IMG/VR virus record: IMGVR_UViG_3300021425_000209
Coordinates: 1 to 22,652 of that record
DNA: 22,652 nt
Reading direction: 5' to 3' (one strand)
Source: a virus
The stretch's first letter is position 1. The number at the start of each line of letters is the position of its first letter. The notes under the pieces are model-generated. The model ran no database searches and had not been told where the DNA came from. It worked only from the letters and a program-made list of their open reading frames with translations. Made by a program: the position numbers and the translations under genes. Positions 4,747 to 22,466 of this stretch are shown here, in pieces.

Positions 4747-4986
4747 TTAACATTTCCATTTACGAAGAGCAAGAGCCTTACGAGTAGGACGACCTTTGCT
4801 GTCCTTCATTGGCCCCTTAACACCGCTCATGCGAGCACAAAAAGACTTACGTCGTTTCGCAGCCTTGGAGCCACGCTTCACCTTGCCAGTTACAGGAGCC
4901 TTTAAGTTGGCTCCTTCCTTGGCTTTAAAGTAACGACGACCAGCAGCCGTTAGGCCACCAGTCTTACTCTTGTGTTCTTTACGCAT
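4747..4986 (-). CDS. small basic DUF6321-like protein (79 aa)
   Basis: A 79-residue, very basic protein: 27 of 79 residues are Lys or Arg. The signature 'KTGGLTAAGRRYFKAKEGAN' near the N-terminus and 'RRKSFCARMSGVKGPMKD' in the middle match my recollection of the DUF6321 family, common in marine phages and of unknown function. Two cysteines are present, one in 'SFCARM' and one as the last residue (KWKC). The charge suggests nucleic-acid binding or neutralisation of packaged DNA, which is inference. The ATG overlaps the end of the 38-residue gene upstream by 8 nt (4979-4986). The stop is directly followed by the fibre-tip A start codon. It belongs to a run of four tiny basic genes. Confidence 0.82.
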   Translation of the reverse strand: MRKEHKSKTGGLTAAGRRYFKAKEGANLKAPVTGKVKRGSKAAKRRKSFCARMSGVKGPMKDSKGRPTRKALALRKWKC

Positions 4987-15502: not shown

Positions 15503-16104
15503 TAGTCTTGATTCTGAGCTGAGATAGAGGCTGCTTGTGCTGCTGATCCTAGTAGAGCACCAAAACCAGCGAGTCTGGAAGCAGAAGCTTGGTTCCTAAA
15601 TTGAGTAGCTTGGTTGGCAGCAGTAGCCAATGTGAGGTCTCGTTCAGCCAAGCCCGAAGACCATGCTAGGTTTACTTGTCTACCCGCTTCACCTGCTTGT
15701 AGGTTATATTGATAAGAAGATTCAGCAGCGTCAAAGTCAAAGCTGGCGAGTTCGTTGAAAGCGGCTGCTTCTTCGGCTTTGAATACGTCAATAAAGTTAC
15801 CGCCAAGCGATGGCATGCTAACACGTTTCTTGGCTAGGTCGGCTTCTAGTTTATCCTGTAGGATGCCGCGTTTAACCTGAGCAACCTGCATAGCTCGGTA
15901 CTTGTTCGCCTCTGCAAGTCCTTGCTGGAAGCGAGCTTGATCGGCTCTGGCGGTTGCGTTGTTAATTGCGACCTGTGCGTTGTACTGACCTTGAGCCTCA
16001 GCAGCATCTGCTGCGTACTCTTGAGCACGTGCTTGGTTCTGGGCAGACCGATACTGGACAAGCCCACTGGCTGCTGTCGCTGCTATTGCTACTGCTGTTG
16101 CCAT
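15502..16104 (-). CDS. internal virion protein, T7 gp14-like position (200 aa)
   Basis: A 200-residue protein, the length of T7 gp14. It starts with a small hydrophobic segment (MATAVAIAATAASGLVQYRS), continues as an Ala/Gln-rich long helix (NQARAQEYAADAAEAQGQYN), and ends with another apolar Ala/Gly stretch (LAGFGALLGSAAQAASISAQ). The middle 'KRGILQDKLEADLAKKRVSM...GNFIDVF' resembles the conserved core of gp14-like proteins. In T7-type phages gp14 enters the outer membrane at infection to form a pore for the other ejected proteins. It begins in a TAATG overlap with tail tube B (16102-16106) and ends in one with the 919-residue protein. Confidence 0.85.
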   Translation of the reverse strand: MATAVAIAATAASGLVQYRSAQNQARAQEYAADAAEAQGQYNAQVAINNATARADQARFQQGLAEANKYRAMQVAQVKRGILQDKLEADLAKKRVSMPSLGGNFIDVFKAEEAAAFNELASFDFDAAESSYQYNLQAGEAGRQVNLAWSSGLAERDLTLATAANQATQFRNQASASRLAGFGALLGSAAQAASISAQNQD

Positions 16105-19100
16105 TAGTTTAGATCCGTTTTAGTGGTTATAGATGCGATAGTCAAGGGGTAAGGCTCTGAATGCTTGATTGTTGGTACGTTGTCCACACCAAAAGTAGAT
16201 CCAGAGACAGGTCTTTCTTTATCGAAACCTGTAAACCCATTACCGATGCCGTAGCTTGGAGAAAGTTCGTTCTTTGTGATGTCGCTCTTAACTCCAACGG
16301 AGTAGCTGAACGAGTTGATGAAAAATGGTTTGATCGAAATAACACGTGCGTTGTCCGATCCGTAAGCTGGCTTGTTCTGGCCGTCCCATGTGGGGAACAT
16401 CATCTTTAGCTCACCTTCGTAAGCGAGACCTACAAGGACTTGCTGTGCGGTGTCTGGATTGTTTATGGTGATCAAGCCACTAGCAGGTACAGTCTGCGTA
16501 CCTTCTGACTCCCCATCTACGACCACGGTGACAACGTCGTTTTCGCTGAACCTAGAGCTAACATCCAAGCTTAGTGCACCAGCGTCTCTCTTTAGCTCAA
16601 GGAAGCTATCCAGATGGTAATAATTGATAGATTGAGCAGACTCGTCGTCTGCCAACGCCTCGTAGTAAACCTGAGTACCGCTTCCTGCGTCAGTTCTCTT
16701 TACAGTTATCCAAAGCTTATCTAGGTCGGACGAGGTGTTTCCGTGCGTTACGTTTACATCCAGCACTGTAGCGTTACTGCCGAGGTCATGCTCAGACCAA
16801 GCGTAGAACTCTTCCTGTCTGTGGTAGGATAGCGAGTACAGCTTACCAGAAACAGTCCTAGTCCATATACGTGGTTGGGGGCTGTGCTGGTATGCGATCT
16901 GAGCTATAGCGTCGTTTACAAAGGTTGGGTAAATTAGCTTCGATACGTCGTTAGACGAACCTCTGGTCAAGTTAGTGTCGTACTTGTACTCAAGAAGTCT
17001 AGTACCAGAACGGTCAGGGTAGAACACGGAAGAACCGATTGTTTCGGCCTGAGCAGCGCAAGGTTCCTCTTCTGAAAGCTCTATTCGTACTGTCTTGGGG
17101 CTGATACCAAACTGGTACTGGTTAGGTACTACGCGGTAGATACCCCCAGAAGTGCCTATGACAAGTTCATTGGCTGCGTTGAGCCAGCGTACACCAGCAG
17201 TTCTGTTAGACAGTTCATAGGTAATTGCGTCTGTGTCCAGTACATCCCCATCATCCTGCGTTAGCTGGAAGCTGAATGTGTCATCTGTTCGGCTAAAGAA
17301 TAAGAAATTAGGCTCTGCGAAAGTACCTCCGTAGATACGACGCTGCTCGAACTTCGTTACAGTTCTTGGATAATTACCAGCGTACCAAGCACCTTTCCTA
17401 AAGCTCTGGAACTCACCGTCATTCTCGAAGTCAAGTGTTCGCTTGTCTCTGGGTACTGCGTTTATCAGTTCTACTTTAAGATCTTTTGCATTGATCCGTC
17501 TGTAGCCCCTCATGTACACATTCCCAGAAGGAAGTGTTCCCATAAAACATCTGCCAACATCAGCATCAGTGAACTCGTTGTTGGTGCTTCGCAGGGTAGC
17601 ATCGTTGGCAATAGTGGTAACAGTCAGTACGCTTGAGGAAGGTGGTACGATAAGCTTACCATCTGCGTTGCTGGATACGTTGTATTCCTCAACAAGTGGT
17701 ACTCCGTCAGCGACACTGTAGCAATCAACTACGTCAAAATTCTTCTGGGTGGACAGGTTGCCTATAACATCCGCAGCGTTACCTGTGTAGGGTGTAAAGT
17801 GGGCACTGTTTCCATGTAACCTAGTTGTACTCCATCCTTGATTGAACGTAGCTGATCTGTTCCCTGTTTGGTTTACGTATCCTGTGGTAACCTTGACCTC
17901 ACCGACTGAGTCTACCCCAGCCATCCAGAGTTCAGTGGGATTCATAATGTAGAACCGATATACACTACCAAAAGTGTAATCGTCGTTCGTTTTAGCACCT
18001 CTAAAGAAATCAACAGGGTGGTCTTCTGTACCACGGTGCTCTTTGATTTGTAACCAGCGAGTAAGGCTGCGTGTGTGGCCGACAACAACGTTGTTGTTGC
18101 GTCTGTCGCTACCCACTCTAATCCACGAGCCTTCGTAACCTTGATTGAATACGGTAGTGTCACAACGAACATGTATATCGTTGTCGGGGACACCATCATA
18201 ACCAAGAGCAGCTATCTCATCTGTATCTGCTGTTTCTTCTGCGTCCAACAGGAATAGCTGGGCAGCAGGGTCTTGGATGTCTACAACAGACTCAACAGGT
18301 TCGATATACACTGTGTCGTTCGTTGGGTCTTCCAAGGTGTAGTTCGCAGAAGTAGCTGCATCTACTACCTTACCTAAGAGTTTCTCACCCTCTAGCTCAT
18401 ACTCAACGTAGAAGTTCTCCCAGTTACCGTCTCCAGCAGCTACAATAGTTGAGAAGTCGTTAGCACTACTCTCAATTTTAAGATAACGCTCGTTCTGCGA
18501 GATGGAGTATTTTGAGTTGCTCTCTTCGGTGTTTGAGATTGGATCAACCGTAAACTCCAGATCTGTTAGGCTCCAGCTAGTATCGCCAAAAACTTCAGCA
18601 CTAGCTGTAAGGGTTCTGGTAACTCCGTTGACATCGAGGGCAGTTAGATTCTTGAGTACACCTCCGTCATCTGCAACAAGCTCTTTAGACTCAGTCGTGA
18701 TGTCAGCCTTGAGCAGCTTAGGCTTGTGTAGCGGGTGTGCGATGTACAATCCATCGGACTCAGCACTAAAGCGAAGCTCATCTAGTTGGGAGGAATTGTA
18801 GGGAGAGTTTACGGTAGAACCTAGTTGGTTCCCATTGGCATCGTAGACCTTGATAACGTTACTGGTGAACTCAGCCCGATACGTAGAATCAGTAGCTAGT
18901 ACCAGATCTACGGTAACTACCTTGTCCTGATCTGCTGTAGTAGATCCGTACCACTTTGTACCAGATCGAAAAACGGCTGGCCCCTGTAGGGATGGGAAAA
19001 AGTTTTTAAAGACACGAGCAGAGTTAGCTACGCGCTTAATATCTAAGCGTCCAAGAATGTAGTCGCTGATAAGACCACCAGAGAAGTCGGACTGAACATT

Positions 19101-19115
19101 GCTATACCTTGCCAT
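16104..19115 (-). CDS. tail tubular protein B (T7 gp12-like nozzle, 1003 aa)
   Basis: A 1003-residue protein. The N-terminus 'FSGGLISDYILGRLDIKR' followed by 'FKNFFPSLQGPAVFRSGTKW' is the hallmark of podovirus tail nozzle proteins (T7 gp12 family), where FSGGxxS..L.GR.D and 'PxxQGP..RRPGT' are conserved. The rest is beta-rich, with later family-like segments such as 'RRIYGGTFAEPNFLFFSRTD' and 'VIGTSGGIYRV'. By family it forms the hexameric end of the short tail, below the gp11-like adaptor. It is somewhat longer than T7 gp12 (about 790 residues), as is usual in marine relatives. Its ATG lies 14 nt inside the end of the tail tube A gene, without a Shine-Dalgarno sequence. Confidence 0.93.
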   Translation of the reverse strand: MARYSNVQSDFSGGLISDYILGRLDIKRVANSARVFKNFFPSLQGPAVFRSGTKWYGSTTADQDKVVTVDLVLATDSTYRAEFTSNVIKVYDANGNQLGSTVNSPYNSSQLDELRFSAESDGLYIAHPLHKPKLLKADITTESKELVADDGGVLKNLTALDVNGVTRTLTASAEVFGDTSWSLTDLEFTVDPISNTEESNSKYSISQNERYLKIESSANDFSTIVAAGDGNWENFYVEYELEGEKLLGKVVDAATSANYTLEDPTNDTVYIEPVESVVDIQDPAAQLFLLDAEETADTDEIAALGYDGVPDNDIHVRCDTTVFNQGYEGSWIRVGSDRRNNNVVVGHTRSLTRWLQIKEHRGTEDHPVDFFRGAKTNDDYTFGSVYRFYIMNPTELWMAGVDSVGEVKVTTGYVNQTGNRSATFNQGWSTTRLHGNSAHFTPYTGNAADVIGNLSTQKNFDVVDCYSVADGVPLVEEYNVSSNADGKLIVPPSSSVLTVTTIANDATLRSTNNEFTDADVGRCFMGTLPSGNVYMRGYRRINAKDLKVELINAVPRDKRTLDFENDGEFQSFRKGAWYAGNYPRTVTKFEQRRIYGGTFAEPNFLFFSRTDDTFSFQLTQDDGDVLDTDAITYELSNRTAGVRWLNAANELVIGTSGGIYRVVPNQYQFGISPKTVRIELSEEEPCAAQAETIGSSVFYPDRSGTRLLEYKYDTNLTRGSSNDVSKLIYPTFVNDAIAQIAYQHSPQPRIWTRTVSGKLYSLSYHRQEEFYAWSEHDLGSNATVLDVNVTHGNTSSDLDKLWITVKRTDAGSGTQVYYEALADDESAQSINYYHLDSFLELKRDAGALSLDVSSRFSENDVVTVVVDGESEGTQTVPASGLITINNPDTAQQVLVGLAYEGELKMMFPTWDGQNKPAYGSDNARVISIKPFFINSFSYSVGVKSDITKNELSPSYGIGNGFTGFDKERPVSGSTFGVDNVPTIKHSEPYPLTIASITTKTDLN

Positions 19116-19713
19116 ATTGACTGTGTGCGTTCAAGAACTGAGAGTTGTCGGCATTGATGTAAGTTTGTGCTGGGCTGCTACGGCCTTCTAGTACACGTGC
19201 TCGTCTAAGAGCCTTGACGTACTGTACATGCAAAATCTCATGTCGGTTCTCAGAGCCTGATAATTCTATACACATGTTCTGGGCCATGTGCAGGCTCAGC
19301 AGTCTAGACAAGAATGGGGGCAGGGTAGAGGCGTTTGTATCTAGGTCAGGGACGTAACTGTAGGAAAATTTAAGTGTTTGCTCTGTGCAATAGAACTTGC
19401 CGTTAGCAAAGCGATAGTCTGTGTAGGCGTAGTCATCTGCATCTTCTACGCCAATAAATAAATTGTAGTCACTCGGAAGAGTAAACTCGTACTTGTGTTG
19501 CTTGAACGTCGTAGACTCAACGCCTGTTAGGGTAATTCTTTTACTGTTGAACTCGAAGATGTTCTCTCCGAACAACTCGTCCACAGCTTGAGCGTAAGCT
19601 CGTGAAGTAATCTCGTAAGTTGTGCTAGTTGTATCACTAGCGTCAAGGTGGTAACTGCCCACCATGCGAAGGGCAGAGTTGATGATTGCTAACTTATTTG
19701 CTTCGGTAGACAT
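19102..19713 (-). CDS. tail tubular protein A (T7 gp11-like adaptor, 203 aa)
   Basis: A 203-residue protein, close to T7 gp11 (196). The N-terminal 'NKLAIINSALRMVGS' helix, the Tyr/Phe-rich middle with 'YEFTLPSDYNLFIGVED' and the late helix 'LPPFLSRLLSLHMAQNMCIE' match the gp11/gp4-type head-tail adaptor fold ('LPP.f..alaa.LA..la..ltg'). By family it forms the dodecameric ring between portal and nozzle. It follows the subtilisin-like gene through a TAATG overlap (19711-19715) and overlaps tail tube B by 14 nt. The order adaptor then nozzle is conserved in T7-like phages and supports the call. Confidence 0.9.
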   Translation of the reverse strand: MSTEANKLAIINSALRMVGSYHLDASDTTSTTYEITSRAYAQAVDELFGENIFEFNSKRITLTGVESTTFKQHKYEFTLPSDYNLFIGVEDADDYAYTDYRFANGKFYCTEQTLKFSYSYVPDLDTNASTLPPFLSRLLSLHMAQNMCIELSGSENRHEILHVQYVKALRRARVLEGRSSPAQTYINADNSQFLNAHSQYGKV

Positions 19714-21158
19714 TAGCTTTCGTACTCAGGGGTTGTCTGACTCTCTGTGTCTTTGGTTGATAAAACTGTAGGAGAACCTAGCGGCTGTAACGTTTCTGTA
19801 CGGTAAGTGATTGTAGTGTCAGTTATACCAGACGGATCAAAAGGAAGACTAGGGTCGATATAAGTAATTTTAAGATTAGAGTTTTGTGATGTGCGCAGCC
19901 TATTATACGCTAGATCCCCTTTATCTCCATCACTTACTGTGGGAGCTACATCGGGGTTACCCATAGTAGCTGAAGACACAGCTATCTCTCTTAAATACTT
20001 ACGCATTTGTGCTGGAGTCGTGGTTGGGTATTTAGACAAAACCATTGCAGCTAAACCAGCAAGTGTGGGACAAGAAAAAGATGTACCGTCAAGTAATGAG
20101 TTATTGTTGGTGAGATGGTTGGAAGTATTTGGAACTGTAACAGGGATGTTTGTACCAGCGACATAGCAATCAACAACTGGCCCTGCATTAGAAGTATCAC
20201 TGAAAAACTCACCACTTAAAAGACAAATTTCTTTTAAGTCTCCAGTGTCTGTTACCTCTGTATTGCCGTCGTTAAACCACGAGTCTAAGTTGCCAACTGT
20301 TATTGTATCTTCATTAGCAAAAGTTGGTCTGTTGTAATAGTGGTTATCAGCGTAAATATACTTTAAAAACGAATTGTTGTAATCAACGCCATTAGGAACA
20401 TCTAGCTTGTTGTATTCATTACCAGCACTAGCAAAGTGTATAACACCAGCATTAGTCATTTCTTCTAATAAAACATCGTCAGTAGGTCTTGGTACTCTGT
20501 GTCTATGAAATTTGGCGAAACCGTTAGGATAGCCAAAGTCTCCTGCTGGCATGTTTTGACCGTCTATAGTGCTGTATGTAGTCCCTCTGAAAGTAAGATT
20601 CTTTACATACTGTAAATTTGATGTTTGACCAAAAGAGTTGACAACTATGGTTGGATTTGAGTTACCCTTTTGTTGGTGAAATAATTTAGGAAGAACCCAG
20701 TAGTGTGAAGAGGATGATATCTGATTTTTTGGGATTATGTAGATGTTAGCTTTAGTAGCTGCACCGTAATCATTGTGACATGCACAAGCTAACACAGATT
20801 CTGAATGAGAAGATCTTGCTGCACTTGTACTGTAATCTACATTAACAGAAGTAGGTGAGTCTGTTAATGATCTCCAATCAAATTGATTTATTCTACTAAC
20901 GCCGCTAGTTTTGTACCCAGCATTATCAGTATATACCATCCCAGCTAGAATAAAAATTATATCTACATTCTCACCTTGACCGTTTGTGCTGTCATAGGTG
21001 TAAGTGTAGTTTTCAGTACCCCCGTAGGATAAGGAAGTAAATGGGTTATTATCACTAGTGTGTCGTATTAAACCCCAGTTTTTGTTGTTGAAGTCTGCGT
21101 GAACTGCTGCGTTTCGTGTACGTGCTAATCGAGTACAAGTTATAGTTTTAGTGGCCAT
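19713..21158 (-). CDS. subtilisin-like (S8) serine-protease-fold protein, catalytic Asp motif degenerate (481 aa)
   Basis: A 481-residue protein with the S8 fold signature. The His motif is 'SSHSESVLACACHND' (His118, in the place of HGTHVA). The oxyanion motif is 'HFASAGNEY' (Asn247). The Ser motif is 'DGTSFSCPTLAGLAAMV' (Ser360). The first motif, normally V-x-V-x-D-[ST]-G, reads 'VDIIFILAGMV': residues 71-73 are LAG, so the usual Asp is missing. There is no propeptide; the fold starts at once with 'NNKNWGLIRHT', as in mature subtilisins, while a separate I9-like gene sits just upstream. Residues about 445-481 form a Thr/Ser-rich tail ending 'TTPEYES'. Its place between capsid and tail genes suggests a virion component or maturation factor. 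It could be an inactive scaffold or could use another acidic residue (Asp66 or Asp78). Confidence 0.88.
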   Translation of the reverse strand: MATKTITCTRLARTRNAAVHADFNNKNWGLIRHTSDNNPFTSLSYGGTENYTYTYDSTNGQGENVDIIFILAGMVYTDNAGYKTSGVSRINQFDWRSLTDSPTSVNVDYSTSAARSSHSESVLACACHNDYGAATKANIYIIPKNQISSSSHYWVLPKLFHQQKGNSNPTIVVNSFGQTSNLQYVKNLTFRGTTYSTIDGQNMPAGDFGYPNGFAKFHRHRVPRPTDDVLLEEMTNAGVIHFASAGNEYNKLDVPNGVDYNNSFLKYIYADNHYYNRPTFANEDTITVGNLDSWFNDGNTEVTDTGDLKEICLLSGEFFSDTSNAGPVVDCYVAGTNIPVTVPNTSNHLTNNNSLLDGTSFSCPTLAGLAAMVLSKYPTTTPAQMRKYLREIAVSSATMGNPDVAPTVSDGDKGDLAYNRLRTSQNSNLKITYIDPSLPFDPSGITDTTITYRTETLQPLGSPTVLSTKDTESQTTPEYES

Positions 21159-21358
21159 TAATCGTCAGTAGTTTCGTTGTTAACAGCCTCAATAAAAGAA
21201 ATACTTCCGTTAGCCATATAAGACTCTATATCTTCGTCATCTACCTCAACAGTGAATACTCTGCTACTGGCAGCTAAGGGATCAGTGACATTATCAAACA
21301 ACTCCAGAACAGTTTGCTTGTCCACACCCTTTGCTACAACTATACGATATTCAGGCAT
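21158..21358 (-). CDS. stand-alone subtilisin-propeptide-like (inhibitor I9-like) protein (66 aa)
   Basis: A 66-residue protein. 'EYRIVVAKGVDKQTVLELFD' at the N-terminus and 'RVFTVEVDDEDIESYMANG' followed by 'SISFIEAVNNE' reproduce the pattern of the subtilisin propeptide/I9 fold: a first strand 'YIVxFKxG', a helix, a strand 'FxVxLDEexxxxL', then 'dPsVxyVEeD'. In that family the propeptide folds the protease and then inhibits it through its C-terminal tail. Here it is encoded separately, directly before the S8-like gene, with a TAATG overlap (21156-21160), so the two are likely made in equal amounts and bind each other. It follows the capsid terminator hairpin; a weak AAAGA is the only ribosome-binding signal. 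The family call is from pattern recall and needs a profile search. Confidence 0.7.
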   Translation of the reverse strand: MPEYRIVVAKGVDKQTVLELFDNVTDPLAASSRVFTVEVDDEDIESYMANGSISFIEAVNNETTDD

Positions 21359-21360
21359 TC

Positions 21361-21405
21361 TTTAGTAAAAGGGAGTAGCCTCCCCCGATACTCAGGGGAG
21401 GCTAC
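21361..21405 (-). terminator. intrinsic terminator after the capsid gene
   Basis: A perfect 11-bp inverted repeat, GTAGCCTCCCC (21375-21385) and GGGGAGGCTAC (21395-21405), with a 9-nt loop. On the - strand it is followed by TCCCTTTTACTAAA, a modest T-run. It begins 8 nt after the capsid stop codon. It probably attenuates transcription so that capsid message exceeds downstream messages, as the terminator after gene 10 does in T7; read-through must feed the tail genes. Confidence 0.8.
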
Positions 21406-21413
21406 GGTTAAGA

Positions 21414-22466
21414 TTAGGATTCGTTACAACGGATCTCACCAGCGACTTCACCCCACATACGAGATGCTTCAGCGCAAAGCTTGAAGTACAAGTAAGGGAT
21501 GTTCTTCTTGGAAGGATCACGCCACATGTCACCCTTAAGTCCAGAACCGATAGACAGTTTCAGAGCTTTAGGAGTTGCAATGATGCAACGACGCTCGTCA
21601 CCACCACCGCCAGTGGAGAGTGGGAGACGCTCAGTGTGGATGAAACGGAAGCCCATGAATGTAGTCACGCTACCTTCAGCAAGGGACTTGCGAACTGCGA
21701 AGTCAGAGCTAACAACTTCAGTGATTCCCAGAAGGTCATCAAGCTGTTTCGCAGAAACGAAGCAGTTAACGATCTCATCTTGGTCAATCGCTTGAAGCTT
21801 AAGCATTGTCCGACGAGCAGCACGAAGCTTTGCGAGGGTAAGACCAGAAGCGGAACCACCGAAGTTAGCACCAACAGAGAAACCTTCGGTTTCACCGCCA
21901 GCAACAACGTAGTCACCTGCTGCTGTGATAGCAGCCGCTCCGTGTCCTTTGGACTTGTCGCCAACAACAATGTTAGTACGATCTTCATCGCCAACACCTT
22001 CACAGAAGGTACGAGTAGTTCCACCAGATTTGCCAACGTAGGCTTCACCGAAGAACTTGTCGATGATGATGTCGTCGATCTTACGCTTACCAGAAGAAAG
22101 CAGAGCTTGTGTGTAAGCGTTCATTGGGTCAGTCAGAACGCGCTTAAGATCCTTCTCATCGACATACTTGCCGAGTTCGTAGTCCTTAAGACCGATCCGA
22201 CGACGACCGTGGTCGATCAGAGAGTTAGGGTTGTCACCATAACGAGTAGCATCCTCTGCCATGTCAGCAGCTACGCCGATACGGTCAAAGTATTGGAACT
22301 CCTCGTTCTGTGATTCTTGCTCGAAAAACGGCTGCAACTTAGACTCGCTTTGCTGGAATGCTTGCTCGAAACCAGCGCGGTAAGCCTGTACGTATGCATC
22401 GTTGATGTCGGTTCCACCCGCAGGTGAACCAGTCTGTGCCATATAGGCAGGATCTGCGTATGCCAT
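21414..22466 (-). CDS. major capsid protein (350 aa)
   Basis: A 350-residue protein with the features of the podovirus capsid family I know as Phage_capsid_2. The N-terminal helix is 'VQAYRAGFEQAFQQSESKLQ'. The core has 'FFEQESQNEEFQYFDRIG', then 'DEKDLKRVLTDPMNAYTQAL' and 'KRKIDDIIIDKFFGEA'. Later come 'LTLAKLRAARRTMLKLQAID', 'CFVSAKQLDDLLG' and 'TTFMGFRFIHTERLP'. These are the places where N-arm, E-loop, P-domain and A-domain of an HK97-type shell are expected. It would form the icosahedral head. It is first in the late virion block seen here, between two terminators, so it should be the most abundant transcript. Its ATG has no Shine-Dalgarno sequence and follows an AT-rich leader. The stop lies just before a terminator hairpin, leaving no room for a T7-like frameshifted long form. 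Confidence 0.9.
   Translation of the reverse strand: MAYADPAYMAQTGSPAGGTDINDAYVQAYRAGFEQAFQQSESKLQPFFEQESQNEEFQYFDRIGVAADMAEDATRYGDNPNSLIDHGRRRIGLKDYELGKYVDEKDLKRVLTDPMNAYTQALLSSGKRKIDDIIIDKFFGEAYVGKSGGTTRTFCEGVGDEDRTNIVVGDKSKGHGAAAITAAGDYVVAGGETEGFSVGANFGGSASGLTLAKLRAARRTMLKLQAIDQDEIVNCFVSAKQLDDLLGITEVVSSDFAVRKSLAEGSVTTFMGFRFIHTERLPLSTGGGGDERRCIIATPKALKLSIGSGLKGDMWRDPSKKNIPYLYFKLCAEASRMWGEVAGEIRCNES

Follow-up and report, generated by a model that had tools for sequence, protein, structure and literature searches.

The window, by which we mean the whole 22,652-nucleotide stretch of marine phage DNA analysed here, carries on its minus strand a gene for a 66-residue protein (ORF66) followed by the gene of a 481-residue subtilase-fold (peptidase S8) protein. 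The pair sits between the gene of the major capsid protein and those of tail tubular proteins A and B, in the following arrangement:

21414..22466, minus strand: major capsid protein (Phage_capsid_2, 1.4e-47)
21375..21405, minus strand: terminator-like hairpin of 14 pairs between the capsid gene and ORF66
21158..21358, minus strand: ORF66, 66 aa, ATG start; candidate stand-alone I9-like propeptide domain (orthologues, AF2 model matches)
21156..21160, minus strand: TAATG stop/start overlap of ORF66 with the S8 gene, read from the sequence
19713..21158, minus strand: 481-aa subtilase-fold protein without a prodomain, predicted pseudoprotease (PF00082, PHROG 9158, catalytic columns)
19102..19713, minus strand: gene resembling that of tail tubular protein A, immediately following the S8 gene (PHROG 394, 1.5e-21; PHROG 9239, tail tubular protein, 8.7e-7)
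16104..19115, minus strand: tail tubular protein B-like gene (PHROG 376, tail protein, 3.6e-85; place after the tail tubular protein A-like gene)

The capsid proteins most similar to that of the window, at about 31-34%, come from pelagiphages and from an uncultured Caudoviricetes phage. The TAA stop codon of ORF66 shares one base with the ATG of the 481-aa protein (TTAATGG), and the latter opens directly at a mature-type N-terminus. The original prediction, made from the sequence of the window, was thus right about the coordinates of the 66-residue protein, its TAATG overlap and the absence of a propeptide from its S8-fold partner. ORF66 orthologues of 65-71 residues occupy the same place in L001, L012, L095/L096 and L099. 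Comparison of three orthologues showed ORF66 to be under purifying selection, with a dN/dS of about 0.2-0.4 (NG86 dN of 0.27-0.30 and dS of 0.89-1.34). Together, these values and the conserved place rule out a chance open reading frame and argue that ORF66 is a real gene.

ORF66 and the S8 gene are adjacent in five distinct genomes, namely the window, L001, L012, L095/L096 (near-identical to each other and counted as one) and L099. The two genes overlap by TAATG in the window, L001 and L012 and by TGATG in L095/L096; in L099 a single base lies between them. The pair follows three types of major capsid protein gene, Phage_capsid_2 in the window, SU10_MCP in L096 and Gp10A-like in L099, and comes after tail-fibre-like genes in L001. 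The surrounding gene order varies among these genomes, and ORF66 and S8 are never separated in them, which indicates that the two genes move together. As a cassette would, the pair also differs in composition, with a G+C content of 39% (30-33% at third positions) against 46% for the remainder of the window; third-position values are 43-51% for most other genes of the window and 31% for one fibre-like gene. A search of bacterial and archaeal genomes found no split-type arrangement, and tblastn searches of phage records with ORF66 and its L096 orthologue returned no convincing relative. Three phages that carry the pair also encode a conserved basic 79-aa protein (RKEHKSKTGGLTxxGRRYF...), at positions 4747-4986 of the window (minus strand), L001:758-997 and L099:3711-3950.

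The 481-aa protein matches Pfam Peptidase_S8 (PF00082) with an E-value of 3.4e-14 and 53 bits, passing the curated cut-off of 21.8. Its match to PHROG 9158 (1.8e-27) starts only at model position 97, a first sign that its relatives possess an extra N-terminal stretch. Alignment revealed that the Asp-His-Ser triad and oxyanion Asn of peptidases S8 are incomplete in this protein, in which only His and Ser are left:

20946..20948, minus strand: Leu71 in the catalytic Asp column (VDIIFIL versus VDVVIVD)
20805..20807, minus strand: His118, catalytic His retained (HSES in place of HGTH)
20640..20642, minus strand: Val173 in the oxyanion-hole Asn column (TIVVNSFG versus TIVNNSWG)
20079..20081, minus strand: Ser360, catalytic Ser retained (GTSF)

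Ser360 lies in a GTS motif, where it had been predicted; the absence of the catalytic Asp and of the oxyanion Asn had been overlooked. In the split partners of the window, L001, L096 and L099, Asp is replaced by L or T and Asn by V or I, and His and Ser are invariant (the L012 and L095 sequences stop short of some or all of these columns). We rejected the possibility that a shifted alignment masks the Asp, given that two MAFFT alignments, with or without a one-column gap, gave L, A, T or S at this position and no Asp. L100, a fused relative, likewise has A in the Asp column and F in the oxyanion Asn column and keeps His and Ser. The main comparison covered 56 fused relatives, 49 of them environmental and 7 isolated, and all 56 have the complete set of Asp, His, Ser and oxyanion Asn. 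The fused protein of S-CAM1 has E in the Asp column and I in the oxyanion Asn column, and that of S-SCSM2R has S in the latter, indicating that degeneration is not limited to the split clade. A subtilisin devoid of its catalytic Asp and oxyanion Asn is expected to lose nearly all activity, as established by mutagenesis. The split S8 partner, which lacks both, is predicted to be a pseudoprotease; its S8 fold, its degenerate residues in the alignment and the retention of a putative prodomain as a separate gene fit the profile of Csp-like subtilase pseudoproteases. Annotations such as "phage S8 peptidase" can therefore mislead about activity.

These observations bear directly on the function originally predicted for the pair, in which an active phage protease would be accompanied by a separate chaperone and inhibitor, the release of which would set the timing of head maturation or of host entry. 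The I9-like partner, the conserved Ser and His and the coupling of the two genes are all compatible with such a function. However, Asp is replaced by L, T or A and Asn by V, I or F in the readable split proteins and L100, both residues persist in all 56 fused proteins, and the HGTH motif around the His is also gone. With Leu for Asp and Val for Asn in the partner there would be nothing to inhibit or to time, so inhibition and timed release are unlikely to be the purpose of ORF66. We rejected them as the main reading and regard an active protease held by an inhibitor as very improbable. Catalysis by another route, through a Ser-His dyad or a relocated acid and with ORF66 as a propeptide in trans, agrees with the invariance of Ser360 and His118 in the readable split proteins. 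It is nevertheless very unlikely, as the loss of the oxyanion Asn argues against ordinary acyl-enzyme chemistry and no conserved replacement acid was identified.

Relatives of the 481-aa protein are encoded by more than 400 stretches of environmental viral contigs. In the cyanophage S8 proteins, about 70 residues precede the point at which the window protein starts, within the same chain. Of the environmental relatives, 49 display a motif of the type HYMLTxEEA..vrnDPRVlAxEL within their first 85 residues, and I9 is the Pfam family that matches most of these N-domains (13 of 49, best 0.003, always below the curated cut-off). An AF2 model of the fused L014 protein exhibits the order b-a-b-b-a-b in this domain (bab-bab, four strands; pLDDT above 80). 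Foldseek alignments spanning both domains of the fused relative's model have an rmsd of 21-23 Å, suggesting either that the N-domain is placed differently than in solved pro-subtilisins or that the model leaves its placement unfixed. Two fused proteins bridge the split and fused forms. In L100, the S8 part shares 41% identity with the window protein, and the N-domain gives an ungapped alignment of 59 residues with the ORF66 family; this alignment is outscored by one of 2000 shuffles, and the match ranks second outside the ORF66 family among the 5094 open frames of the loci. In S-CAM1, the fused protein begins, after nine residues, with VDVILVEGTDKQAFVDSFDE, close to YRIVVAKGVDKQTVLELFDN (VEGTDKQAFVDSFDE versus AKGVDKQTVLELFDN; one of 5000 shuffles scores higher). 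The scores for L100 and S-CAM1 are modest, but they fall exactly where a gene fission hypothesis predicts them. The S-CAM1 gene (L103:1987-4242) is annotated as a "putative proximal tail fiber protein", likely a misannotation given that it codes for an S8-domain protein with an I9-like start. In L100, the gene immediately ahead of that of the fused, degenerate S8 protein (L100:2051-4462) encodes Ig-like domains together with a domain of glycosyl hydrolase family 10 (4.2e-49).

In a phylogenetic tree, the split forms constitute one clade (99/99) with L100 as its sister (100/100), and the active-type fused proteins fall outside. Since L100 is fused and already degenerate, the simplest reading of this topology, given by this single fused relative, is that the catalytic residues were lost first and that the gene was split afterwards. 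A subtilase unable to cut itself cannot free its prodomain, so that the split would have restored a free chain.

Neither ORF66 nor two of its orthologues matched Inhibitor_I9 (PF05922 / MEROPS I9) in a Pfam profile search. Comparison of ORF66 with Pfam, PHROGs, the PDB by profile search, and by profile-profile alignment (P of 0.016) yielded nothing significant, and the profile search against I9 families that had been put forward as a check of the 66-residue protein thus returned no significant sequence match. The AF2 model of ORF66, folded using only two orthologues, reached medium confidence (pLDDT 74) and has the order b-a-(a)-b-a-b, with strands at residues 3-8, 34-38 and 53-59 and helices at 14-20, 27-32 and 41-48. 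This corresponds to three strands and two main helices, compared with the four-stranded bab-bab fold of I9, and a gap of 12 residues in the alignment agrees with the missing strand. The strand-helix-strand pattern recognized earlier is therefore seen in the model, with three strands where textbook I9 has four. When the model was compared with 350,542 PDB chains, the top 50 matches included 21 S8 propeptides or stand-alone I9 proteins as well as 7 MORF proteins, the matches being singly not significant (E-values of 0.2-2; 0.37 for the best S8 propeptide or I9 match). Foldseek E-values for the model as I9 are 0.03 and above. In viral structures (BFVD), the S8 protein of S-CAM1 ranks first and an S8/S53 protein of ACG-2014e ranks fourth. 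The plant MORF/DAG-like proteins found among these matches show similarity to the I9 inhibitor domain but do not act as protease inhibitors (PMC5515838). Unlike ORF66, they have no subtilase partner and are organelle RNA editing factors.

ORF66 might instead be an unrelated small alpha/beta protein, of the virion or of its assembly, whose fold is ferredoxin-like and whose place before the S8 gene is due to chance. Such folds are common, the ORF66 model is one strand short and no significant sequence link ties ORF66 to I9. This explanation is nonetheless unlikely in view of a pair that stays intact behind three capsid types and in different gene orders, of fused relatives that carry a domain of similar size at exactly the same place, and of an S8 protein as the best viral structure match together with the ungapped match to the N-domain of L100. 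The fused relatives, the structure matches and the conserved linkage make it most likely that ORF66 is a propeptide domain of the I9 type now encoded by a gene of its own. The split propeptide is well supported, though no single sequence score is significant. The original claim that the phage divides a propeptide and its enzyme into two chains hence holds for the propeptide, and its second half has to be amended, the partner being predicted dead and not a working enzyme.

The I9-type fold also exists as a separate small gene in POIA1, the yeast peptidase B inhibitor, Arabidopsis SPI-1, TgMIC5 and SUB1-ProM, the gene of the last adjoining subtilisin genes (PMC6993865). Unlike ORF66, these stand-alone proteins regulate active eukaryotic subtilases, their genes show no start/stop overlap and their partners are not dead (PMC6993865). 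The existence of such free inhibitors (POIA1, the yeast inhibitor, SPI-1 and SUB1-ProM; PMC6993865) lends some credit to a scenario in which ORF66 would inhibit another subtilisin, for example a host protease, with the S8 pseudoprotease as decoy or carrier. We consider it extremely unlikely, because a late structural operon strictly couples ORF66 to S8, and the fusion seen in L100 and S-CAM1 speaks for a partner in cis.

The gene context is that of a virion structural protein. In addition to the position of the window pair between the capsid and tail tubular protein A genes, L099 encodes a degenerate S8 domain whose C-terminus continues into tail tubular protein A (PF17212, 1.4e-42), the two making up a single chain of 811 aa (L099:4290-6725); a gene for a tail tubular B-type tail protein comes after it. 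The fused cyanophage genes are found among baseplate wedge and tail-fibre genes. The fused relative SSCSM1_228 carries a virion protein annotation, given by authors whose work included mass spectrometry of virions (PMC9602691). Our best inference places the S8 module in the neck or tail. In the S8 protein of L096 (L096:4824-6878), the C-terminal part (residues 495-684) is 47% identical to CDS0038 of phage C75C1, a protein of unknown function, perhaps a neck protein, whose gene stands shortly after the capsid gene.

The hairpin between the capsid gene and ORF66 has a predicted energy of -28.8 kcal/mol (z of -4.9), and none of 200 shuffles is as stable. In T7, a terminator follows the capsid gene, a layout that the window resembles, and the hairpin may lower the expression of downstream genes relative to capsid. 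No Shine-Dalgarno-like motif was detected before the S8 start in the window (20 nt checked), L012 or L099, and purine-rich stretches occupy this position in L001 and L095/L096. S8 could plausibly be translated by reinitiation, which would link the two doses, as originally suggested.

We propose, with a probability of roughly 0.6 for the explanation as a whole, that ORF66 and S8 form a two-chain, non-proteolytic subtilase module of the neck or tail. An I9-type prodomain would have been split off a phage subtilase homologue by gene fission at the domain linker. The homologue would already have lost its catalytic Asp and oxyanion Asn, and thus could not cut off its own prodomain. The two chains would be made in series from one message via the overlapping stop and start codons. 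Subtilisin prodomains are textbook intramolecular chaperones, and it is plausible that ORF66 chaperones its S8 partner in trans. It would bind the pseudo-subtilase domain non-covalently, help it fold and probably stay as a subunit. The complex would then serve the virion neck or tail, at the level of the adaptor, for instance in decoration, stability or surface binding. More tentatively, and as a possibility that we would not yet favour, gene fission may have replaced self-cleavage, restoring a free prodomain that is now a permanent subunit of a tail or neck pseudo-enzyme and giving rise to a two-gene cassette that travels between podoviruses with different capsid types.

We found no description of a phage split prodomain with a dead subtilase in the open-licence literature. 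CspC and CspA of Clostridioides difficile are the closest conceptual match to the window pair: they share with it a subtilisin fold, a degenerate triad, a prodomain that is kept bound and a non-proteolytic role (PMC6636752). They differ in that their prodomain is in the same chain, uncleaved, and that they act in spore germination and not in a virion (PMC6636752). In CspC the Asp (D105) is present, and T170 and G485 replace His and Ser, which is the opposite of the situation in the window protein (PMC6636752). In phages, the cyanophage S8 proteins (PHROG 9158; T4-GC 292 of P-SSM2, S-CREM1, S-H38, ACG-2014e and S-CAM1) resemble the pair in that a homologous S8 domain is preceded by an I9-like domain and in their location among baseplate and tail-fibre genes. 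In contrast with the window, the I9-like domain is in the same chain, and the genes belong to myoviruses. The main groups sampled keep Asp, His, Asn and Ser, except for S-CAM1, and S-SCSM2R is without the Asn. The window pair is apparently a natural split-gene experiment in a protein that has ceased to function as a protease, and in it the prodomain's part in folding is set apart from inhibition. The subtilase-fold module, which looks active in cyanophages and inactive in these podoviruses, emerges as a portable component of phage tails.
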